Assembly (NCBI RefSeq): GCF_014698235.1
Contig: NZ_JACJSP010000008.1
Location: 62,001 to 126,000 of the forward strand
Origin: Limnothrix sp. FACHB-406
GTDB lineage: Bacteria > Cyanobacteriota > Cyanobacteriia > CACIAM-69d
Direction: 5' to 3'
DNA length: 64,000 nt
Positions 4,929-21,951 of the stretch are shown here, piece after piece (the first letter of the stretch is position 1; every line of letters begins with the position of its first letter). Under the pieces are notes generated by a model that did no database searches, was not told the DNA's origin, and worked only from the letters and a program-made list of their open reading frames with translations. A program made the translations under genes and the position numbers.

Positions 4929-6302
4929 ATGTCTGATGAGTTCGGATTTTCGCGTCGTCGCTTTCTATTGACCGCTGGAGCCTCCGCCGCAGGCTCCATT
5001 CTTTTAAAAGGATGTTTGGGAAATCCCCCAGAACCCGGTGGCACTGCCGCTAGTCCCGCCGGAGGATCGCCCGCCAGCACCGGTAGCCCCGCAGCCTTGA
5101 CCCCGGAAACCACCCCGGAAGTCACCAAAGCCAAGCTGAGTTACATCCCGATCGCCGAATCTGTTCCCCTGATCATTGCCAAGGAAAAAGGCTTTTTCGC
5201 CAAGTACGGCATGACCGAAGTGGAGGTGTCCAAGCAAGCCAACTGGGCCGCCGCTCGCGACAACGTGGTGATCGGTTCCCAAGCGGGTGGGGTTGATGGG
5301 GGTCAGTGGCAAATGCCCATGCCCCACTTAATCACCGAGGGCATCATCACCAACGGCAAAAAAGTGCCCATGTATGTGTTGGCTCAACTGGTAACCAACG
5401 CCAATGGCATCGCTGTTTCTGGCAAAAATGCCGGCAAAGGATTGGGCTTAGATCTCAAAGGTGCTCAGGCCTACATCAAGGACTATGCCAAGGCTAATGG
5501 TCGCAAATTCAAAGCAGCCCACACCTTTCCCAACGTAAACCAAGATTTCTGGATCCGCTATTGGTTTGCAGCCGGTGGAATTGACCCCAACAAAGACATC
5601 GACCTGCTGGCTGTTCCCCCGCCAGAAACCGTACAAGGGATGCGGATCGGGACGATGGATGCCTTCAGTACCGGTGACCCCTGGCCCTATCGAATTGTCA
5701 ACGACAAGATTGGGTTTATGTCTTGTTTGGTCACCGAAATGTGGCCCTACCATCCCGAAGAATATTTCGCGATGCGGGCAGATTGGGTGGATGCCAACCC
5801 CAAGGCCACCAAGGCATTGCTGAAGGGAATCATGGAAGCCCAGCAATGGTGCGACAAGCCCGAAAACCGCGCAGAATTGGTGAAAATTGTTTCCGGTCGG
5901 AACTATTTCAACATTCCTGCCAACATTCTGGAGCCGCCTTTCTCAGGCAAATATGCCATGGGAGATGGCAAGCCGGACATCAACGATTTCAACAAGGGCC
6001 CGCTCTATTGGAAAGACCCGATCGGGAGCGTTTCCTATCCCTACAAGAGCCATGATCTTTGGTTCCTCACGGAAACTATTCGTTGGGGCTTCCACAAGGA
6101 TTACGGTTTCACAATCGCCAAGGCTAAGGATTTGGTTGAGCGAGTCAATCGCGACAGCATTTGGCTGGAAGCTGCGAAGGAAGCAGGGATTACCGATGTG
6201 CCCAGCAGCCCTTCCCGTGGGGTAGAAACCTTCTTCGACGGCATCAAGTTTGATCCTGAAAAGCCCGAGGATTACCTCAAGAGCTTGGCCATTAAGGCTT
6301 AG
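4929..6302 (+). CDS. nrtA: Nitrate/nitrite ABC transporter substrate-binding lipoprotein
   Basis: Periplasm-facing, membrane-anchored binding protein that captures nitrate and nitrite for the NrtBCD importer. The N-terminus has a twin-arginine type motif (FSRRRFLL) followed by a hydrophobic stretch and a lipobox ending LLKGC, so it is exported folded and lipidated at Cys about residue 36. A Pro/Gly/Ser linker (about 38-65) leads to the NrtA/SsuA-like fold starting [22 protein letters not shown]. At 457 residues it is of normal NrtA length. It is the first gene of nrtABCD and shares sequence with the C-terminal half of NrtC. Confidence 0.95.
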
Positions 6303-6407
6303 GAATTCGCTCCCAAGGAACCAACTCCTTCAGGACGACTCACACACCCAATTGGTTGAATTCTGCTTCATTCAACTTCTTTCTTCGACTTTCGAGAGAA
6401 CATCACC

Positions 6408-7244
6408 ATGGCACCTTCTGTATCTCGATCGAACGGCATTTCCAAGCCCTCCGCCTTTGACCAATGGCTGAAGAAAAATGGCAGCACGATCCTATTACCT
6501 GCGATCGGGATTTTAGGATTCCTGACCATCTGGCAACTGATTGCTTGGTCGGGTGTGACCCGGTTGCCCGGCCCCCTGAGCGTGTTTACCGACGAGCGCA
6601 CCCGCACCCTGCTGCTCTATCCCTTCTACGATCGCGGCGGGTTGGATAAGGGTCTGTTTTGGCAAACGATGGCGAGCCTGGTGCGCGTGGCCCAGGGTTA
6701 TGCGATCGCCTCGGTCGTGGGCATTTCATTGGGGATTTTAGTGGGTCTTTCACCGGCCATTGATAAGGCACTGGATCCGGTTTTTCAGTTCTTGCGGATG
6801 ATTGCACCGCTGGCGTGGGTACCGATCGCCCTGGTGACGTTCCAACAACCGGAAATTTCGGCAATCTTCGTGATTTTTGTGACCGCTGTTTGGCCGATTT
6901 TGATTAACACCACGGTGGGTGTGAAGCAAATTCCCCAGGACTACATCAACGTCAAACAGGTGTTGCAACTCAAGCAAAAAACCTTCTTCTTCAAGATTCT
7001 GTTCCCCTCGGCCCTGCCCTATATCTTCACGGGTTTGCGGATTGCGATCGGTCTGTCTTGGTTGGCAATTATTGCGGCTGAAATCGTGATTGGTGGCACA
7101 TTGGGTATCGGATTCTTCATCTGGGATGCTTATCAGCAAAACTACGTCAGCGAAATCATTCTGGGCGTGGTTTACATCGGAGCTGTGGGCTTGATTCTCG
7201 ATCGCGCTGTTGCCTACATCCAAACCCTGATCCTGCCGGAATAA
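6408..7244 (+). CDS. nrtB: Nitrate ABC transporter permease
   Basis: Inner-membrane permease of the nitrate/nitrite importer. 278 residues with about six hydrophobic segments (e.g. ILLPAIGILGFLTIWQLIAW near residue 30 and AIGLSWLAIIAAEIVIGG near 220) and the binding-protein-dependent permease family loop around residues 170-210 (KIPFS-like 'KTFFFKILFPSALPYIFTGLRIAIG'), which docks on the ATPases. Located 105 bp after nrtA and followed by nrtC, so expected to be co-transcribed. Confidence 0.94.
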   Translation: MAPSVSRSNGISKPSAFDQWLKKNGSTILLPAIGILGFLTIWQLIAWSGVTRLPGPLSVFTDERTRTLLLYPFYDRGGLDKGLFWQTMASLVRVAQGYAIASVVGISLGILVGLSPAIDKALDPVFQFLRMIAPLAWVPIALVTFQQPEISAIFVIFVTAVWPILINTTVGVKQIPQDYINVKQVLQLKQKTFFFKILFPSALPYIFTGLRIAIGLSWLAIIAAEIVIGGTLGIGFFIWDAYQQNYVSEIILGVVYIGAVGLILDRAVAYIQTLILPE

Positions 7245-7267
7245 ATCGGTAAATCGCCAGTTTCAAA

Positions 7268-7290
7268 GGGCGCAAGCGTTGCGCCCCTAC
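7268..7290. repeat. GGGCGCAA...TTGCGCCC hairpin between nrtB and nrtC
   Basis: Perfect 8-bp stem (GGGCGCAA / TTGCGCCC) with a three-base loop, followed by CTAC rather than a T-run. The same stem type recurs between nrtC and nrtD (9333) and after pmbA (14676). It looks like a dispersed REP-type hairpin inserted in intercistronic DNA, which could stabilise or segment the nrt mRNA. Confidence 0.85.
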
Positions 7291-7324
7291 CTATTCCCTC
7301 CGCTGGTTTTTAGAGGATTGCCCC

Positions 7325-9322
7325 ATGAGTGCATTCGTTGCGATCGAGAATCTCGAAAAAGTCTTTCCCCTCAACCAAGGTGAATACCTCGCCCTCAAGG
7401 GCATTGACCTGACGATTAAAAAGGGTGAATTCGTTTCCCTGATTGGTCACTCCGGCTGTGGCAAATCCACCCTGCTGAACATGATTTCCGGGTTGGACTT
7501 TCCCACCGATGGCCTCGTCACCCTGGAAGGGCAACGGATTAAAAAACCCGGGCCCGATCGAATGGTGGTGTTCCAAAACTATTCGCTGCTGCCCTGGTTG
7601 ACCGCCCGCGAAAACATCGCCCTGGCTGTCGATGAAGTGATGGGTGATTTGCCCAAGGCCGAGCGCGATGCGATGGTGCAAACCCACATTGATATGGTGG
7701 GTTTGAAACAAGCCGCCGAAAAGCGCCCCGGTCAACTGTCCGGCGGGATGAAACAACGGGTGGCGATCGCCCGTGCCTTGGCACTCAAGCCCAAGCTGTT
7801 GCTGTTGGATGAACCCTTTGGTGCGCTTGATGCCTTGACTCGCGGCAATTTGCAAGAAAAGCTGATGCAAATTTGCGAGGAAAACCAAGTCACCGCCGTG
7901 ATGGTGACTCACGATGTGGATGAGGCGGTGTTGTTGAGCGATCGAATCGTGATGCTCACCAACGGCCCCGGCTCCAAGATTGGGCAAATTTTGGAAGTGG
8001 ATATTCCCCGCCCTCGCAAGCGGATGGAAGTGGTGGAACACCCCAGCTACTACAAGCTGCGATCGGAAATGATCTACTTCCTAAACCAACAGAAACGGGT
8101 GAAGAAGATCCGCGCCCGCAAGGTGGAAGTGGTCGCCAAACATGGCTTGGAAAAAGTCAATTTGGAAATCGGCTTTGTGCCCCTCACCGCCTGCGCTCCC
8201 CTGGCTGTGGCCAAAGAAAAGGGCTTCTTTGAAAAATATGGTCTTGATGAAGTCAACCTGGTGCGGGAAACCAGTTGGCGCGGCATCGTAGATGGGATTG
8301 CCGGTGGCTACATCGACGCGGCCCAAATGCCCTCGGGGATGCCAATTTGGTTAACCGTTGGCGGCCATGAGGATCGCCCCTTGCCCACGGTCACTTCCCT
8401 GACCATGAGCCGCAACGGAAACGCCGTCACCCTTTCCAAAAAGCTGTTTGATGCGGGTGTCCAAACCGCCGCCGACTTCAAAAAGCTGCTGCGGGAAACG
8501 CCGGGTAAATCCCACATTTTGGGGATGGTTCACCCCTCTTCCATGCACAATTTGCTGCTGCGTTATTGGCTAGCAGCCAACGAAATTGATCCCGATCATG
8601 ATGTGCATTTGGAAACGATTCCGCCGGCCCAAATGGTGGTGGATTTGAAAGCGGGCAGCATTGACGGCTATTGCGTCGGTTCGCCCTGGAACCTGCGGGC
8701 CGCCATGGAAGGCGTGGGCGTGACGATCGCCACCGACCTGGAAATCTGGCAAGGACACCCCGGCAAAGTCCTGGGCGTGCGCGAGGACTGGGCCAACGCC
8801 TACCCCAACACCCACGTGGCCCTGGTGAAGGCGCTGCTGGATGCCTGCCGCTACTGCTCCGACCCGGCGAACCACTTGGAAGTCCGCAAAATCCTGAGCG
8901 ATCGCGCCTATGTGGGCACCCGCGAGGAATACATCCACCTGGGCGATCCAAAGGAGCTGACCTGCGACCTGGGCAACCCGATCGAATATGCCCACCACTG
9001 GTTCTATGGCGAAGGGGCCAACCGTCCCAGCCGCACGGAACACCTGTGGATGATGGCGCAGATGGCTCGCTGGGGCGATGTGCCCTTCCCGCGCAACTGG
9101 CTGGAAGTGCTGGAGCGGGTGGTGCGCCCAACCACCTACAGCATCGCCGCCCGGGAGCTGGGCTTGCTGGATGAGAAGTTCCGGCGCGGGGCGATCGAAC
9201 TGTTTGATGGCTCGGCCTTCGACGCGGAAGACCCGATCAGCTACCTGAACAGTCTGGCGATTAAGGCCAACATCTCGATCGCCGAAGTTCACCTCGATCC
9301 GCCACGCATCTTGGCTGCCTAA
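7325..9322 (+). CDS. nrtC: Nitrate transporter ATPase fused to a NrtA-like regulatory domain
   Basis: One of the two ATPases of the importer. Residues about 1-255 are an ABC ATPase with Walker A GHSGCGKST, signature LSGGMKQR and Walker B LLLLDEPFGALD. A basic linker near 255-280 leads to a C-terminal NrtA-like domain (from about VNLEIGFVPLTACAPLAVAKEKGFF to the end). In cyanobacteria this C-terminal domain is known to mediate ammonium-dependent inhibition of nitrate uptake. At 665 residues it has full NrtC length. GAGG lies about nine bases before the ATG. Confidence 0.96.
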   Translation: MSAFVAIENLEKVFPLNQGEYLALKGIDLTIKKGEFVSLIGHSGCGKSTLLNMISGLDFPTDGLVTLEGQRIKKPGPDRMVVFQNYSLLPWLTARENIALAVDEVMGDLPKAERDAMVQTHIDMVGLKQAAEKRPGQLSGGMKQRVAIARALALKPKLLLLDEPFGALDALTRGNLQEKLMQICEENQVTAVMVTHDVDEAVLLSDRIVMLTNGPGSKIGQILEVDIPRPRKRMEVVEHPSYYKLRSEMIYFLNQQKRVKKIRARKVEVVAKHGLEKVNLEIGFVPLTACAPLAVAKEKGFFEKYGLDEVNLVRETSWRGIVDGIAGGYIDAAQMPSGMPIWLTVGGHEDRPLPTVTSLTMSRNGNAVTLSKKLFDAGVQTAADFKKLLRETPGKSHILGMVHPSSMHNLLLRYWLAANEIDPDHDVHLETIPPAQMVVDLKAGSIDGYCVGSPWNLRAAMEGVGVTIATDLEIWQGHPGKVLGVREDWANAYPNTHVALVKALLDACRYCSDPANHLEVRKILSDRAYVGTREEYIHLGDPKELTCDLGNPIEYAHHWFYGEGANRPSRTEHLWMMAQMARWGDVPFPRNWLEVLERVVRPTTYSIAARELGLLDEKFRRGAIELFDGSAFDAEDPISYLNSLAIKANISIAEVHLDPPRILAA

Positions 9323-9332
9323 ATTCCGAAGA

Positions 9333-9356
9333 GGGCGCACGGCGGTGCGCCCCTAC
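9333..9356. repeat. GGGCGCAC...GTGCGCCC hairpin between nrtC and nrtD
   Basis: Perfect 8-bp stem with the four-base loop GGCG followed by CTAC. It is the second copy, within the same operon, of the hairpin type seen at 7268. Confidence 0.85.
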
Positions 9357-9414
9357 AGAGAAACATCGCTTCAGTTTGCAATCCGAATTAACCGATTCGT
9401 CGGAGGTTTTTAGG

Positions 9415-10254
9415 ATGTCGATCGCCACCAACAGCGCTCAAAAAGTTGCGCCGCTCCAGTCTTCCGGCACGCCCTTTCTAGAGTTCAAAGGGGTTAACAA
9501 AACCTACCCCACCGGCAAAGGCCCCTACGTCGTTTTGGATGGGGTGAACCTCACCGTTAATGAGGGTGAATTTATCTGCGTAATCGGTCACTCCGGTTGC
9601 GGGAAATCGACCCTGTTGAGCATGGTTTCTGGGTTTGCCCAGCCCACCCACGGCACGGTGCGCCTCAAGGGTCAAGACATCAAAAAGCCCGGGCCCGATC
9701 GAATGGTGGTGTTCCAAAACTACGCCCTATTGCCCTGGTTGACGGTGTTTGAAAACGTCTATCTAGCGATCGATGCGGTGTTTCCCGAAAAACCTGAACG
9801 GGAAAAGCGTGCTATGGCTCGCGACAACCTGGCCATGGTGGGTCTCAGCGAAGCCATGGAAAAGAAGCCACCGCAAATTTCCGGGGGTATGAAGCAGCGG
9901 GTTTCGATCGCCCGCGCCCTTTCTATTCAACCGGAAGTGTTGATTCTCGATGAACCCTTTGGTGCGCTGGATGCGATCACCAAGGAAGAACTCCAAGAGG
10001 AATTGCTGAAAATTTGGAGTGGTCGCCGCTGCACGGTGTTGATGATCACCCACGACATTGATGAGGCGCTCTTCTTGGCCGATAAGTTGGTGATGATGAC
10101 CAACGGCCCTTCCGCAAAAATTGGGGAAGTGATGGAAATTCCGTTCGATCGCCCGCGCGATCGCGATCTGATCATGGAAGATCCGCGCTACTACGATCTG
10201 CGGAACTACGCCCTCGATTACCTATTCAATCGCTACGCCCACGACGACGAATAG
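9415..10254 (+). CDS. nrtD: Nitrate transporter ATPase subunit
   Basis: Second ATPase of the importer, 279 residues, with Walker A GHSGCGKST, signature ISGGMKQR, Walker B LILDEPFGALD and the H-loop THDIDEA. Unlike NrtC it ends after the ATPase domain. A frame extends upstream to 9376, but GGAGG at 9402-9406 points to ATG 9415. It is the last gene of nrtABCD and is followed by a terminator about 45 bp downstream; narB and nirA do not follow. Confidence 0.95.
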   Translation: MSIATNSAQKVAPLQSSGTPFLEFKGVNKTYPTGKGPYVVLDGVNLTVNEGEFICVIGHSGCGKSTLLSMVSGFAQPTHGTVRLKGQDIKKPGPDRMVVFQNYALLPWLTVFENVYLAIDAVFPEKPEREKRAMARDNLAMVGLSEAMEKKPPQISGGMKQRVSIARALSIQPEVLILDEPFGALDAITKEELQEELLKIWSGRRCTVLMITHDIDEALFLADKLVMMTNGPSAKIGEVMEIPFDRPRDRDLIMEDPRYYDLRNYALDYLFNRYAHDDE

Positions 10255-10394: not shown

Positions 10395-10769
10395 TCAATC
10401 AATAACTGCTTTTAAAACATTTCTCAAGTCAGGATCTGATGGACGTTTAGCAAACTGCTCATGGCTATATAGCCACACCAACCGAATAATTCGTGCTTCA
10501 GCGTCCACAAGATACATTAAGCGAATCTGGCCAGATGCCCCGCGCCCTACTTTCAGCTCCAGTTTGTGAAACGTCCAGTTATCAGGCAACCGGAAGCGAC
10601 TAGGTAATGGTTCTTGGCGAGAACTTGGTGGATGAGGATCATCCATCAACTGTTCTAATATGAAGGTCATCTGACTGACCATCACTTGACCTGTAGCCTT
10701 AACCAACTTTTTAAAAGAGCGCTGAAATTGCTCAGAACTCTCAATCGAGAAGGGAGTTAAGCCAGTCAT
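10395..10769 (-). CDS. RelE/ParE-like toxin candidate paired with Panacea antitoxin
   Basis: 124 residues. The pattern SSEQFQRSFKKLVK at the N-terminus, the central HKLELKVGRGASGQIRLMYLVD strand region and the terminal HEQFAKRPSDPDLRNVLKAVID fit a compact basic RelE/ParE-superfamily toxin (mRNA-cleaving or gyrase-targeting). Its start overlaps the 3' end of the Panacea gene by 29 bp, the coupling expected of a toxin-antitoxin operon. Family assignment is from fold-like patterns, not a clear catalytic signature. A HigB- or YoeB-like activity would be an inference. Confidence 0.65.
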   Translation of the reverse strand: MTGLTPFSIESSEQFQRSFKKLVKATGQVMVSQMTFILEQLMDDPHPPSSRQEPLPSRFRLPDNWTFHKLELKVGRGASGQIRLMYLVDAEARIIRLVWLYSHEQFAKRPSDPDLRNVLKAVID

Positions 10770-11328
10770 TCACTGCTCCTTTCTCAATCGTAGCGGTGGG
10801 TGGATTTGTTAAGGATGTATGGAGCATCTGGGTCATCGCCGCATCATAAACTGGCGATGATCGCTCAATTTGCTCTAATTTTTGATCACCTAATGCTTTG
10901 AGATCATTCAGTGAAATGGGTTGTGTTGAGCTCGCTTCCGCAGGCAGTCCTCGACGAGCCTTCTGCCAAGGAAATTCACCATGACTCATATCACTCAATC
11001 GGTAGGCATGATAGTTACCAAAGTGATCCCAAACCTCATCGAGAACCGATTGGATTTCTTTTGAAAGATGAGATAGCTTTTTTCGCTCAGGAAATGGCAA
11101 TTGCTGGGCTTCAAAGTCACTATAAAATCGATAGGCAGGTGGGCAAACGGGCCCATATCGCCATGCTTGAATCTCTTCAGCAAAGAGCGGTTGATCATAC
11201 AAAGCCAGGTGCAAGCTCTGGGCGTAATAGAGCAGCTTTTGCACCTTCATATTGGTTATATCGACTTCCAAGCCATCTTCATAGGCTCGGGCAATGAAGT
11301 ATTGAGCAGCATCGAGGCAGCTAATCAT
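10741..11328 (-). CDS. Panacea-domain (DUF4065/SocA-like) antitoxin
   Basis: 195 residues. The segment ISCLDAAQYFIARA..ITNMKVQKLLYYAQSLHLAL..PLFAEEIQAWRYGPVCPPAY is the characteristic Panacea (DUF4065) signature: a helix, then KLQKLLYYAQ and the GPV motif. Panacea proteins act as broadly transferable antitoxins for diverse toxins (PanAT systems). The frame is open to 11367, but AGAGGGG about ten bases before ATG 11328 and the family's usual beginning favour 11328. Its 3' end overlaps the downstream toxin candidate. It is transcribed opposite to nrtD and lies behind the guaB3 terminator. Confidence 0.85.
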   Translation of the reverse strand: MISCLDAAQYFIARAYEDGLEVDITNMKVQKLLYYAQSLHLALYDQPLFAEEIQAWRYGPVCPPAYRFYSDFEAQQLPFPERKKLSHLSKEIQSVLDEVWDHFGNYHAYRLSDMSHGEFPWQKARRGLPAEASSTQPISLNDLKALGDQKLEQIERSSPVYDAAMTQMLHTSLTNPPTATIEKGAVNDWLNSLLD

Positions 11329-11462
11329 GGCTTGGGTTCCCCTCTGCTTTGGTCGATCGCTAATCACTTCTCAGTCCATTCTAGAGTTCTCGACTGTTCA
11401 AAATCCAGTTCCAAATGCGGGAAAAACGCGATCGCACATGCTTCAGACGATTCAAAAGCATT

Positions 11463-14767: not shown

Positions 14768-17617
14768 TTAGCCCACGGCCCCAGCGGTCGCCAGGGTCGA
14801 TCGCAGGCTCAAGACCTGTTGCAGACGGCGGCTTTCTAGCTCCAGCACCCGGCGGGACAGCTCGCGATCCTGATCCAGTAGGTCATCAAAGCGATCGACC
14901 GGCATGGCCAAAATTCGCGTCGGCTCCGACAGGGCCACCACCGTGCCCGTTTGCTCCGAATGGGCCAGCACTTCCAGCTCATCAAGCACTTGCCCCGGAT
15001 GGAACGCGGTCGGCTCCGGCTCGCCCGGTCGGGTGATTTGCGCGTCGCCTTCGATCAACACCAGCAGTTCGCGGCAGGTGTCGCCCGCCTCGACGATTTC
15101 AGCGCCGGCCCGGTAGCTGCGGACTTCCGATCGCGCCGCCACCTCCAGCAGCAATTGCCCGTTCAAATCCGCGAAGAAATCGGTATTGGCCAAGGCCGCC
15201 AATTTTTCCAGGGTCGGACAATCCACCAACAGCAGGGGCCGATCGGGGTCGGCATCCACCACCCGTTGGGCCGTGTCCGCCACGATCGGGTCAGGAGCCG
15301 CCAGCCAATCCCGCGCCAAGCTCACGGCCCGGGGCCGATCGACCCGCGCTAAGCCAAACAGGGCCACCGCCTGGGCCGTGGGCGGCATTTCCACCTCGCC
15401 CAGCAAATGGGCCAGGTCATCGGCAATGTCCGAAGCGGGCAGGTCGATCGCACAAGCGCCGCCCCCCGGTGCATTGAGCTGCTGCCAAATCTCGGGAGTC
15501 AGTCGATCGCTCCAGCGATCGTCCGGATCGGCTAGCACATCCGGCAGGGTCACGGCCGCCAAGGTGCTGAGGGTTTGGGCAAACCGCTCGGCCACCGGGT
15601 CGTTGCCCAACCGCTCCAGAATTTCCAGCAGCCCGCGAATCACCAACTCCTGCTGGTGGCGCACGGTCGATCGCAACACCGTGAGCAACGACGACAGGGC
15701 CGGCTGGGCCAGCAGTTGCGGTTGGTGCAAGCGGCGGAACCGATCGACCTCCACGGTCAGCCGCGCGATCAGTCGATCGCCCCGCTGTTCCGCCGCCTGG
15801 ACGCGATCGAGCTGAGCGATCGCCCGTTCTTCGTCACTGGCGCTAATCCCATATTCCAACCGCAGGGCCGCCAACTCCTCGGGGTTGACCGCCAAGGATT
15901 CCAGGGCACTTTGGCGCGGGCCGCCCCGATTTTCTTGCAGGGCGATCGTCCGCTCCAGAGCGCGCCGATAGCCCGTCAAGCGCACCAGATTTTCCAAGCT
16001 GCGTTGGCGGTTCGGATCGAGCAGGGCCGGATCTTCCACGCCCAACTGGGCCAGAATTTCCCGGTGATCATCATCGGAAATATCCAACTCTTGACGCAAT
16101 TGCCGCAATACTTCCAAGCTGCTGGCGGTGTCCGTAAAGCCTTCTTCCAAGGATTCGCGCAGCACGCCTTTGTAGGCTTCCCGCCGTTGATTTTGGGTGA
16201 AGCCGGGCAGCACTTTGGCCAGCACATACAGCTCGTGGGGGTTCAGATCGTCGATCGACCGGCCCTCAAAATATTGCGCCACATCCAACCGCATTTTCAC
16301 CAACTGTTTGCGGAAGCGGTTGGCCAAGTTCTCCAACGAATAAAGCCGGGGGCTGCGGGCCCAGGCCCGTTGCAACCAAAAGGCACTGAGCAGCACGAGA
16401 GACACATCCCACAACCACTGCACTTTATAGGGCAGTTGGGTGATGATCGGCCGGCCGCCAAAGATAAAGAAGAAGTTGAACACCGCAAAGGTGCAGATCG
16501 TGAAAATTCGGTGTTGCAGCACTTCGCGGGGCAACTTGGCGCTGCCGGCCCACAGTTGCCGAATCGCCCGCTCCGCCGCCAGTCCGATCGCCACGCCCAG
16601 CACCGTAAATAGCCCCAAGGTCAAGGGCACGGCCAGCAGTTTGGGAATCGCGATCGCCTGGCCCGCCAGATAAAAACCAGGTTTCAGCCATTGGCCGATC
16701 GCGTCGGCTTGCCGCGCCCAATAGCCGGACATGTAGTAGTTCCAGTTCCCGGCGTAGAGGTAGTAATAGCCAAAGTAGCCGACCACCAAGCCCACATAGC
16801 CGTAGTAGAGCCAGCGGGTGGTGCGATCGGTGATGTCATCCCAATACGATCGCTCGGAGTCAATATCAATGCAGGGATTTTGGCAGGCCACACAGGCGCT
16901 GCGTTCCTTGCCTTCCGGGTCGATCGTCCGGCACATGGACTGGGTAATCGGCGTTTCGCTGGTGTGGGCCTTGCTGGCAAACAGGCCGCCCGGTTCGCCA
17001 TAAACCCGCTGCACCGGAGCCATCGGGCAAAAATATTGACACCAGGACTTGCCGCCGTAGAAATAGCCCACCGCAATGGCGATCGCGATCGTCCCCAACA
17101 GCCACAGGCCCAGGGCCAGGCGATCGGAATTGATCACCAAAATCCGCAAGCACAGGCCCACAAACAGCCAGCCAAATTGCAAATAGGGATAGTTACGCCC
17201 CAGCCAGGAATTGGGTTTCACCTTGGCCAGTTCCGATTTCACCTTGCCGGTTTTCGGGTCGGTTTTGGTGCGTTGTCGCTGCCAACCCAAGGCCCGGGGA
17301 ATTTGCGACAAAAACGACAGGGGGCAAATCCGCCGCCACAGCTCGTGGCCAAACACCAACAAAATCAAAATCCCCGCCGGAACCACAATCCCCCAAAACA
17401 GGGAAGTCCCGATCGGGTAGGGCTGCTCAGGCAAGCAGTTGCCCTGGACGGTGACGCATTGGGTGGGGTCAACCCGAAACGGACTCCAGGTTTGTTCCCA
17501 GCGGGTCAAGGCGGAGGAAAAGGGGTCGTAAAACAGGGAGGCGATCGTGCCTAACCACCCGATCGTCAGCACCCAGCGAACCCGATGAAAGGTGCGTTCA
17601 GAGAAGCGAGCGAACAT
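14768..17617 (-). CDS. Membrane 4Fe-4S protein with C-terminal cyclic-nucleotide-binding domain
   Basis: 949 residues. The N-terminal 430 or so contain about six to eight membrane segments with NapH/CcoG-like cysteine clusters: RICPLSFLSQIPRALGW, WCQYFCPMAPVQRVYG and a CVACQNPCIDID ferredoxin-type motif. A long helical middle region (about 450-790) contains EF/helical bundle-like repeats (LAKVLPGFTQNQRREAYKGVLRE). The C-terminus (about 815-945) reads like a cNMP-binding/Crp-type beta-roll (FFADLNGQLLLEVAARSEVRSYRAGAEIVEAGD..LLVLIEGDAQI..GQVLDELEVL). This suggests a redox membrane protein regulated by a cyclic nucleotide or using the roll structurally. It follows kdpC by 155 bp on the same strand. 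Function unknown. Confidence 0.85.
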   Translation of the reverse strand: MFARFSERTFHRVRWVLTIGWLGTIASLFYDPFSSALTRWEQTWSPFRVDPTQCVTVQGNCLPEQPYPIGTSLFWGIVVPAGILILLVFGHELWRRICPLSFLSQIPRALGWQRQRTKTDPKTGKVKSELAKVKPNSWLGRNYPYLQFGWLFVGLCLRILVINSDRLALGLWLLGTIAIAIAVGYFYGGKSWCQYFCPMAPVQRVYGEPGGLFASKAHTSETPITQSMCRTIDPEGKERSACVACQNPCIDIDSERSYWDDITDRTTRWLYYGYVGLVVGYFGYYYLYAGNWNYYMSGYWARQADAIGQWLKPGFYLAGQAIAIPKLLAVPLTLGLFTVLGVAIGLAAERAIRQLWAGSAKLPREVLQHRIFTICTFAVFNFFFIFGGRPIITQLPYKVQWLWDVSLVLLSAFWLQRAWARSPRLYSLENLANRFRKQLVKMRLDVAQYFEGRSIDDLNPHELYVLAKVLPGFTQNQRREAYKGVLRESLEEGFTDTASSLEVLRQLRQELDISDDDHREILAQLGVEDPALLDPNRQRSLENLVRLTGYRRALERTIALQENRGGPRQSALESLAVNPEELAALRLEYGISASDEERAIAQLDRVQAAEQRGDRLIARLTVEVDRFRRLHQPQLLAQPALSSLLTVLRSTVRHQQELVIRGLLEILERLGNDPVAERFAQTLSTLAAVTLPDVLADPDDRWSDRLTPEIWQQLNAPGGGACAIDLPASDIADDLAHLLGEVEMPPTAQAVALFGLARVDRPRAVSLARDWLAAPDPIVADTAQRVVDADPDRPLLLVDCPTLEKLAALANTDFFADLNGQLLLEVAARSEVRSYRAGAEIVEAGDTCRELLVLIEGDAQITRPGEPEPTAFHPGQVLDELEVLAHSEQTGTVVALSEPTRILAMPVDRFDDLLDQDRELSRRVLELESRRLQQVLSLRSTLATAGAVG

Positions 17618-21225: not shown

Positions 21226-21951
21226 TCAATTATGAGATGCAATTAAAGTTGGACCAACCTTAGCCTCAACCTTATACCCTTGACCAACCATGTATCTAAA
21301 CACTGGATGCTGAAGGGGCTTAGAGAAATCAAATCCATGAGCTTCTACAAGAAGAATTTTCGGGCAAAATCGTTGAATATCAAATGACCACAAAATTTCC
21401 TCATCTAGACCCTCACAATCGATATCCAGGATATCTATTGATTGTTTAGGGGGAAGATATTGGTCAAGAATTGAGTTGAGTGTTCGCATTTCAATTAATC
21501 TTGATCCCAGGTAGTGAAATCCTGAGTCTTTAAATCCCTGAGCCATAGCATCGGAGAATGTGTTAACTGCACCATCAGAAAACATATGTAATTTTTCAAG
21601 GCCACATGTGTTTCCTACGCCAAAATTCAAATTAATATCTCTTGGTCTTGCAGACTCAAATAAAGCAATGGAGTGGGGGTTAGGATCAATGTTAATTCCC
21701 TTCCAGCCGACATTGTACAAGAAGTTTGTGTTTGAGTAGAGAGATGGGTGAAACGCTCCAACATCTACATAAAAACCAGGACACCTAATATCAATACTTA
21801 ATACTGACAGTAAATGCCTTAGAACAGCATCTTCACCACATTGAGAGTAACTGTTATAGTGCTGCATTGATTTTAATATCCAGAAAAAGTTTTTGATTAG
21901 TAGCAGTGAGCTACAAAAACACTCAAACACTTCTTTTATTTTAGCACTCAT
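21226..21951 (-). CDS. FkbM-family SAM-dependent methyltransferase
   Basis: 241 residues. The core YSQCGEDAVLRHLL, GFYVDVGAFHPSLYSNT, GWKGINIDPNPHSIALF and DILDIDCEGLDEEIL is the FkbM methyltransferase pattern (SAM site at VDVGAFHP, acidic loop at INIDPNP). These enzymes O-methylate sugars or polyketides, often in surface polysaccharide loci. The gene is far more AT-rich than its kdp neighbours and lies between kdpA and kdpB in the same direction, flanked by direct repeats of the kdpA 3' end. It is therefore an insertion; it may be transcribed with the kdp operon. A nonpolar stretch near residues 10-27 (CSSLLLIKNFFWILK) could be a weak membrane contact. Confidence 0.85.
   Translation of the reverse strand: MSAKIKEVFECFCSSLLLIKNFFWILKSMQHYNSYSQCGEDAVLRHLLSVLSIDIRCPGFYVDVGAFHPSLYSNTNFLYNVGWKGINIDPNPHSIALFESARPRDINLNFGVGNTCGLEKLHMFSDGAVNTFSDAMAQGFKDSGFHYLGSRLIEMRTLNSILDQYLPPKQSIDILDIDCEGLDEEILWSFDIQRFCPKILLVEAHGFDFSKPLQHPVFRYMVGQGYKVEAKVGPTLIASHN

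Follow-up and report, generated by a model that had tools for sequence, protein, structure and literature searches.

The window analysed here is a stretch of 64,000 nt from Limnothrix sp. FACHB-406, in which the gene of interest is an open reading frame of the minus strand (17617..14768) that starts with ATG, encodes 949 amino acids and contains no internal stop (Table 1). The plus strand, when read in frame 1 across 14768..17617, contains stop codons. Pfam searches with the window protein matched cNMP_binding (PF00027) at residues 833-917, with 42.4 bits versus a cut-off of 27.5, and Fer4_5 (PF12801, CxxxCP type) at residues 173-207, with 22.8 bits versus a cut-off of 22, which is a margin of 0.8 bits; matches to ENT, zf-RING_12 and TPR_20 fell below the Pfam cut-off. 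Both accepted domains were matched (E<=0.01) in 53/53 aligned sequences including that of the window, and HEAT_2 in eight of the 53. The AlphaFold2 model of the 949-residue protein contained eight transmembrane (TM) helices, a helical part from residue 423 to 828 and a beta-roll at 831-906. In the helical middle, residues ~430-547 are well conserved, and the remainder is variable and weakly HEAT-like. These data bear out the sequence-only reading that one intact chain combines a cysteine-rich polytopic part, a helical middle and a Crp-like roll, the last of which matches a cNMP-binding profile. This combination is not due to chance, because identities of 43-97% were found for the 80 best named loci.

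Table 1. Features of the window that are discussed in the text
Feature	Position in window	Strand	Basis
Gene of the membrane protein with putative Fe-S module and CNB roll	14768..17617	-	ORF, Pfam, 74-sequence full-length alignment
Membrane module, residues 1-419	16361..17617	-	AlphaFold2, Fer4_5, charge count
Long helical middle, residues 420-800	15218..16360	-	alignment, AlphaFold2, HEAT_2 matches
CNB (Crp-like) beta-roll, residues 833-917	14867..15121	-	Pfam; Z ~17 to CNB domains
Cys pair C54/C61, predicted periplasmic loop, residues 54-61	17435..17458	-	invariant 74/74; 31/31 across architectures
C98-P99, degenerate CxxxCP, cytoplasmic end of TM2	17321..17326	-	alignments
C193xxxC197P and C229...C242xxC245xxxC249, putative Fe-S ligands on the predicted cytoplasmic side, residues 193-249	16871..17041	-	74/74; 31/31
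Altered phosphate-binding cassette, residues 878-893, LDELEVLAHSEQTGTV	14939..14986	-	Arg lost, Ala->Glu, Gly->Asp
cmpA, bicarbonate-binding protein (HPEEY, Glu form)	4929..6302	+	708 bits to CmpA 2i48 versus 420 to NrtA 2g29
cmpB, permease	6408..7244	+	families; position after cmpA
cmpC, ATPase with CmpA-like domain	7325..9322	+	families; position
cmpD, ATPase, start codon uncertain	9376..10254	+	families; position

The TM helices of the membrane module were predicted at residues 7-29, 69-97, 138-162, 166-187, 265-289, 326-356, 364-386 and 397-419, and the charge count according to the positive-inside rule predicted a cytoplasmic N terminus. Nine cysteines are invariant in 31/31 modules of every architecture in hand; with this topology seven of them are predicted to be cytoplasmic, and the pair C54/C61 periplasmic. 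In the degenerate motif at C98-P99 the expected position of the first cysteine is occupied by W94. NapH proteins are defined by two CxxxCP and two ferredoxin-type four-cysteine motifs. The window protein does not contain this set, as it has one CxxxCP besides the degenerate C98P, and C229 with C242xxC245xxxC249 alone. It also had no match at E<=1 to the NapH/MauN profile TIGR02163, and a paralogue (L156) matched this profile distantly, with 22.8 bits (E 5.6e-5) versus a curated cut-off of 213. Hence, the earlier term NapH-like is fair as a description of the cysteine clusters, but the motif set differs from that of NapH. No solved structure in the PDB matched the fold of the membrane module (0/61 Foldseek matches at E<=0.001; best Z 3.1), which does not establish a new fold. 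This cyanobacterial membrane protein probably carries electrons on Fe-S clusters.

Relatives were found in 171/388 genomes of the class and in 0/38 other genomes of the phylum. The same module is followed by CNB, FHA+CNB, EF-hand or short tails, where FHA+CNB and the EF-hand pair were identified by Pfam on one protein each, and the further proteins with these tails were assigned by length and reading. The FHA+CNB forms kept the cNMP Arg in 7/8 cases, and a cyclase closely related to that of L142 is encoded in seven of the nine genomes with such forms, in 7/7 by the FHA+CNB gene. Directly 3' of a module gene, and in the same orientation, there is a gene for an FHA-FAD-NAD(P)-[2Fe-2S] reductase, a domain make-up derived from five reductases scanned; this arrangement was found in 51/76 reductase rows, the 51 belonging to 46 genomes, when 76 of at least 92 reductase rows were compared with 54 module rows. 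This gene order in 46 genomes favours a regulated transmembrane electron-transfer protein, and its presence at the paralogues makes redox activity under ligand control the best reading. There is no such reductase in the window genome, and none was seen beside cmp-linked module genes in the gene maps inspected.

The beta-roll was similar in fold to 1u12_A (Z 17.1, rmsd 2.3, 131 aligned residues). Its phosphate-binding cassette was compared among 74 window-branch sequences, which were the window protein and 73 of 81 ORFs from the 80 named loci, full-length only; they include near-copies from the genus of the window and exclude L114, which has a stop in its range. Arg was present at the cassette Arg position (889) in 0/74 sequences, and Gly at the cassette Gly position (879) also in 0/74 (D 66, N 8). 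The cassette Glu, E880, was present in 73/74, position 882, which corresponds to the cassette Ala, was E in 63, Q in 9 and D in 2 sequences, and H886 and E890 were found in 61/74 and 51/74, respectively. Thus, of the two cassette residues that had been named as a check of the cNMP-binding assignment, Glu is kept and Arg is gone, and by these alignments the sensor domain of the window branch no longer has one of the key contacts to a cyclic nucleotide. The earlier proposal of redox activity under cyclic-nucleotide control holds in its redox-type module and Crp-like roll, but not in a cyclic nucleotide as the ligand in this branch. Loss of the Arg is also found in CNB proteins with other ligands. 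Among PDB sequences, the isolated roll matched trypanosome PKA-R (6ftf, 6hyi, 6flo) best, with a small margin and by a rank that sums two stretches, single stretches being about equal to PKG (16.0 versus 16.2-16.7 bits). Residue 882, where Glu prevails in the window branch, corresponds to E311 of PKA-R (PMC10959531).

Three other explanations of this pocket were considered. The loss of the phosphate-binding Arg and Gly could mean that the roll has a structural or docking role without a ligand, in a protein that is a redox scaffold, and the helical, weakly HEAT-like middle would suit protein contacts; we consider this somewhat unlikely, as the pocket is conserved rather than decaying, with D/N879 and E/Q/D882 in 74/74 sequences each, besides E880 and H886. 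An ordinary cAMP- or cGMP-regulated redox protein, in which a cyclic nucleotide on the roll switches the Fe-S module, would agree with the CNB score above the Pfam cut-off, with 20 nucleotide-cyclase domain matches in the window's own genome, and with the cyclase gene that adjoins the Arg-keeping sister FHA+CNB forms. It is improbable, however, given the complete absence of the cassette Arg and Gly from the window branch, the conserved acidic residues in it, and the fact that in the gene maps inspected by eye no cyclase was recognised next to cmp-linked genes. The acidic pocket might instead bind a metal ion, for example Ca2+, and so make this CNB form a counterpart of the EF-hand form, which is consistent with the conserved D/N879, E880 and E/Q/D882, with E890, and with the EF-hand tail on the same module; we know of no precedent for metal binding at the CNB phosphate-cassette site, and regard this possibility as quite improbable.

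The recurrent neighbour of the family gene in the window's branch is cmpABCD, the bicarbonate transporter BCT1. When the neighbours at the 80 named loci were clustered, no single one dominated, the largest groups being sensor-like proteins (12 loci) and ABC proteins (11), and the link to cmp was visible only once the ABC neighbour genes were named. Among the matches listed, where 102 rows taken as window-type were compared with cmpA-like rows, 55 genomes had both genes, and in 15 of these cmpABCD was located within 10 kb of the family gene, nine of the 15 being supplied by one family; a cmpA-like gene also occurs in some genomes that lack a family member. In the tree, which omits L061 and L180 as near-copies, a link to cmp is seen in each of the five clades that make up the window's grade. 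Among its nine rows not chosen for cmp, six are adjacent, the window gene is 4.5 kb from cmpD and two are by a cmpD fragment; a further 11 rows (L166-L176) were fetched because cmp was near, and inflate the 20-row grade. In the sister clade of 66 rows, to which Synechocystis salina belongs, three rows are cmp-linked, and since 33/58 named rows there have at least 5 kb on both sides, this scarcity is not explained by short contigs alone. A nitrate-transporter identity of the window's ABC operon was rejected on the CmpA score and the Glu instead of Lys. The A gene was of the Glu (CmpA) form in 19/20 cmp-linked loci checked, and the remaining record lacked the gene. These data make it very unlikely that the protein is a NapH-like electron donor for nitrate/nitrite assimilation beside an Nrt transporter, to which the distant profile match of L156 and the paralogy of the cmp and nrt operons could point; moreover, no narB or nirA was recognised by eye in the maps inspected.

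The gene directly follows kdpC on the same strand, as had been noted from the window alone, but the proposed role in potassium transport with KdpABC is hardly credible, because among 195 loci kdp genes adjoin it in the window genome and one other, near-identical genome (G001/L061) only. In the sister L062/L180, which is 95% identical, the gene and cmpA are divergently oriented, and kdp was not seen. An inversion bringing the gene to kdp was rejected, as the shared blastn blocks are all in one relative orientation, which makes this a relocation of the gene; in 19.2 kb of G002 beyond guaB, tldD is the sole part shared with the window. Since the gene is found near the bicarbonate transporter in the window's branch, and not near the potassium transporter, the protein may be an unrecognised part of cyanobacterial carbon uptake.

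For the window protein the sequence, the architecture, the cassette change and the synteny are established. The reading that we prefer, with slightly less than even confidence, is that the protein belongs to a family of cyanobacterial proteins for ligand-gated transmembrane electron transfer, that its gene is linked to BCT1 in the window's branch, and that it most likely acts there as a regulatory or activating partner of BCT1 which responds to redox state and a metabolite. The eight-helix module would hold Fe-S clusters at the cytoplasmic face via the seven invariant cysteines, and we infer that electrons enter it from cytoplasmic ferredoxin or an NAD(P)H-flavin reductase and leave it for an acceptor in the membrane or the periplasm. 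The cytoplasmic tail, which is interchangeable, would act as the gate, using cNMP and FHA, or Ca2+ in the EF-hand form. In the window branch, the CNB pocket would be re-made for a phosphate-free ligand, for which a nucleoside is the best guess; to our knowledge, no nucleoside-type cassette was known in a bacterial CNB domain, and it would be new. A bolder claim, which we regard as rather unlikely, is that the family comprises second-messenger-gated transmembrane Fe-S oxidoreductases, a functional counterpart of NOX/RBOH in bacteria whose exchangeable gates respond to cNMP, phospho-peptide, Ca2+ or nucleoside, with the window member as the missing redox/nucleoside-sensing activator of BCT1. If true, the lack of this activator would account for the failure of native BCT1 by itself in E. 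coli; according to a review (PMC13249358), native BCT1 is reported to be inactive in this host, and missing modifications or regulatory changes have been suspected. A neighbour that could link bicarbonate uptake to reducing power and to a metabolite would be a direct candidate for a BCT1 factor, which is relevant to engineering carbon concentration in crops. The family would also join Fe-S redox chemistry with several signal inputs in one modular design.

Synechocystis slr0593 may be an orthologue of the window-type family; a Synechocystis salina member is among the loci (L073), and PCC 6803 is absent from the named loci. The name given to slr0593 in the available text of PMC3516471 is 'cAMP binding membrane protein', that is, a CNB membrane protein. 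If it is orthologous, the cAMP in this name would be unsupported by the cassette of its relatives. A description of the family was not found in the literature searched, where slr0593 is named in PMC3516471 alone, and the available portions of PMC13249358, PMC13421787 and PMC10117731 do not mention the family.

Among known systems, NapH/MauN (TIGR02163; Fer4_5) shares with the window protein the polytopic build, a CxxxCP after a TM helix and cytoplasmic cysteine clusters. The window protein differs in its eight predicted TM helices, degenerate CxxxCP, periplasmic Cys pair and large sensor tail, and in having one CxxCxxxC with a distant Cys instead of the two ferredoxin motifs of NapH. With the CNB domains of PKA-R, PKG, HCN and CRP the fold is common (Z ~17) and the cassette Glu is kept, but the cassette Arg and Gly of these proteins are missing from the window branch. 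The purine-nucleoside-binding CNB domain of trypanosomatid PKA-R has the same Ala->Glu change and Arg loss at the same two cassette positions, as given in the available text of PMC10959531. It keeps the cassette Gly, in contrast to the Asp/Asn of the window branch in 74/74 sequences, so that the nucleoside parallel is partial. The NADPH oxidases NOX5 and RBOH combine a membrane redox core, control by Ca2+ or phosphorylation and an NAD(P)H-flavin donor. The family differs from them in a predicted Fe-S rather than heme core and in a reductase on a separate chain, and the likeness would be one of working principle.

The 949-residue chain proposed in the sequence-only reading proved to be a genuine ORF, the plus-strand reading of this stretch being interrupted by stops, and the claimed cyclic-nucleotide-type (CNB) roll was borne out by a Pfam cNMP_binding match to residues 833-917 (42.4 bits against a cut-off of 27.5). 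Fer4_5 matched residues 173-207 with 22.8 bits (cut-off 22). The closest named locus belongs to a Limnothrix MAG (97%). The AlphaFold2 model, based on 53 sequences (mean pLDDT 83.9, pTM 0.58) and least certain in the cluster loop (about 222-251), placed eight transmembrane helices in residues 1-419, followed by a helical middle, to which HEAT_2 matched weakly in 8/53 members, and then by the CNB roll; a separate model of residues 1-440 (pTM 0.84) was consistent with it. The distribution of Lys and Arg, nine in loop 98-137 versus two in loop 30-68, fits a cytoplasmic N terminus. On the predicted topology C98, C193, C197, C229, C242, C245 and C249 lie on the cytoplasmic side, C54 and C61 on the periplasmic side and C156 within TM3, and all ten are invariant in the 74 full-length window-type sequences, the window protein included. 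The component parts all fall into known families. Tested for NapH membership, the membrane module did not qualify; its lack of a PDB match at E<=0.001 (best Z 3.1) is no proof of a new fold.

Family members were found in 171 of 388 class genomes (E<=1e-40). In the phylum scan, which alone covered genomes beyond the class, 6/59 were positive and 0/38 of those outside the class; within these searches the family is cyanobacterial, as is every title of the 80 named loci (best 80 of 194 confirmed). The C-terminal half is interchangeable between relatives, with four tail kinds, assigned by Pfam for a single FHA+CNB protein and a single EF-hand protein and otherwise by length and reading. Nine cysteines are invariant over 31 modules of all kinds, C156 being the exception (13/31). 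In the module tree (112 rows, quick method, some long branches) a branch with support 89 (not starred) sets the four EF-hand rows apart, and another, with support 100, does so for the eight FHA+CNB rows together with two short rows and one CNB row. Synechocystis slr0593 is presumably the orthologue of the window protein. Under iron deprivation this 'cAMP binding membrane protein' was down by 1.32 log2 units at 3 h and by 1.35 at 12 h, and near zero again at 48 h (PMC3516471). No description of the family was found in the literature searched, mainly freely accessible papers.

The membrane module is probably a redox protein, and it is called an electron-transfer protein mainly because a reductase gene sits directly downstream of module genes. 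A gene whose product combines FHA, FAD-binding, NAD-binding and plant-type [2Fe-2S] domains (five proteins scanned) comes after short-tailed and some CNB-bearing module genes; the best NCBIfam match of one such protein was glycine betaine monooxygenase reductase (338 bits, below the cut-off of 500). The module gene lies directly upstream on the same strand in 51 of 76 reductase rows (46 genomes; rows from the matches listed), at gaps of 4-1904 bp, the remaining 25 including genomes whose module rows were outside those matches. This reductase was not found in the window genome, where ferredoxin and FHA matches occur only as separate ones; by inference, ferredoxin could be the donor there.

A link to potassium transport, suggested earlier from the adjacent kdp genes, did not hold, as among 195 loci kdp occurs only in those of the window's own genome and of a near-identical one (G001/L061). 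The neighbour that recurs is cmpABCD, encoding the bicarbonate transporter BCT1, whose window A protein has Glu where NrtA has Lys; this Glu form recurs in 19/20 cmp-linked loci, the record of the other (L082) starting inside cmpD and holding no A gene. The sister at 95% identity (L062/L180) has its Fe-S gene divergent from cmpA, at a distance of 722 bp, and guaB and tldD past cmpD; in the window the Fe-S gene lies past tldD instead, the common blocks keeping their relative orientation. The Fe-S and cmp genes are <=10 kb apart in 15/55 genomes with both among the matches listed (naive binomial 3e-21, kinship ignored; nine of the 15 are one family). In the tree the window belongs to a 20-row grade made up of five starred clades, grouped after the tree was seen; 11 of these rows (L166-L176) were fetched for having cmp nearby. 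Six of the other nine are cmp-adjacent (L062, L082, L087, L093, L151, L177), the window gene is separated from cmpD by 4.5 kb, and cmpD fragments sit beside the gene at L063 and L074. The 66-row sister clade has only three cmp-linked rows, although 33 of its 58 named rows are flanked by at least 5 kb in each direction. The cmp label requires 6 changes on the tree.

Features of the window and of related loci
Feature	Locus	Position or length	Strand	Remark
Membrane Fe-S/CNB gene	window	17617..14768	minus	ORF, 949 aa
C848 codon (GDTCREL)	window	15074-15076		beta-roll
cmpABCD operon	window	4929-10254		A protein 708 bits vs CmpA, 420 vs NrtA
SocA/Panacea antitoxin gene overlapping 124-aa gene	window	10395-11367	minus	between cmpD and guaB
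FkbM-type methyltransferase gene	window	21226-21951	minus	between kdpA and kdpB
Fe-S gene divergent from cmp	L062/L180, L166-L174
Fe-S gene downstream of cmpD	L082, L086, L087, L093, L127, L151, L175, L176, L177
Fe-S gene upstream of cmp	L181		same
ParA/MinD-type NTPase arrangement	L129; also L132, L133, L136-L139, L185	6817-10877 (L129)
Tail kind 1: CNB				window type
Tail kind 2: FHA + CNB		1,075-1,264 aa		open frames
Tail kind 3: EF-hands		721-834 aa
Tail kind 4: short		about 580-640 aa

The SocA/Panacea gene and its 124-aa partner, which had no Pfam match at E<=0.001, are likely a toxin-antitoxin pair. The cmpA-cmpB interval holds a porin-like gene (by eye; 578-589 aa) at L166, L167, L168 and L172. 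At L166, L167, L169, L170, L172 and L173 the Fe-S gene is succeeded by a DUF362 gene (Pfam on L166 only) and has a ferrochelatase-like gene (by eye) within about 1.5-2 kb; L178 has a similar one at a distance of about 5 kb. NDH-1 CO2-uptake-like genes (cupB-, ndhD/F-like, by eye) past the cmp-linked gene at L086 (12.5-15.5 kb) and L127 (beyond 16 kb) suggest a carbon-uptake cluster. Upstream of the Fe-S/CNB gene, and on its strand, the Crocosphaera/Cyanothece clade carries genes for a ParA/MinD-type NTPase (Pfam on L129; seven loci from neighbour clustering, plus L185) and for a small protein with no match.

In the most likely scheme, the Fe-S module would draw electrons from the cytoplasm, the CNB roll would sense a phosphate-free ligand, and the state would be handed on to BCT1, perhaps via the helical middle. 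A review describes BCT1 as induced at low inorganic carbon, blocked at low nitrate by its own CmpC regulatory domain, and inactive in native form in E. coli (PMC13249358); a putative redox- and metabolite-gated partner would fit this behaviour. A functional tie of the Fe-S/CNB protein to BCT1 in the window branch is slightly favoured, a little less so once the tree rows selected for cmp are discounted, and the whole statement, that it is a ligand-gated transmembrane electron-transfer protein acting as a regulatory or activating partner of BCT1 there, is more tentative, a little short of evenly balanced.

The cassette of cNMP-binding domains reads G-E-x-A-...-R. Of the two residues singled out in the sequence-only reading, the window branch keeps Glu (E880, 73/74) and has lost Arg (0/74 at its position); the Gly position is D/N in 74/74, and the Ala position is Glu, Gln or Asp (63/9/2, n=74). 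C848 is Cys in 71/74 window-type sequences and absent from the aligned FHA+CNB rows; it is possibly a redox switch inside the sensor itself. The FHA+CNB forms, 7/8 of which retain the cassette Arg, are an internal contrast to the window branch. A close relative (66% or more) of the Tll0287-type class III cyclase of L142 was found in 7/9 FHA+CNB genomes, always at the FHA+CNB gene: divergent from it in six (224-651 bp by match edges) and about 5 kb away in G170, where the reductase and two other genes intervene. Two of these cyclases were scanned with Pfam, and CxxCH is present in 5/5 inspected. According to a 2026 preprint, Tll0287 domains are c-heme Cache domains, and one tested signalling member had NO-sensor properties (PMC12889525).

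The isolated roll, compared with the PDB, ranked trypanosome PKA-R first (E 2.2e-6), but this score sums two stretches (13.0 and 16.0 bits), neither better than PKG (16.2-16.7), and therefore the parallel with PKA-R rests on the cassette. One study reports that trypanosomatid PKA-R has Glu at this Ala and a polar residue at this Arg, and that it binds purine nucleosides instead of cAMP (PMC10959531). A nucleoside-like ligand for the window-branch roll would be conceivable but rather improbable. Across the cassette residues compared, the Gly differs between PKA-R and the window branch, which weakens the parallel; the Ala-to-Glu change and the loss of Arg are the same in both.
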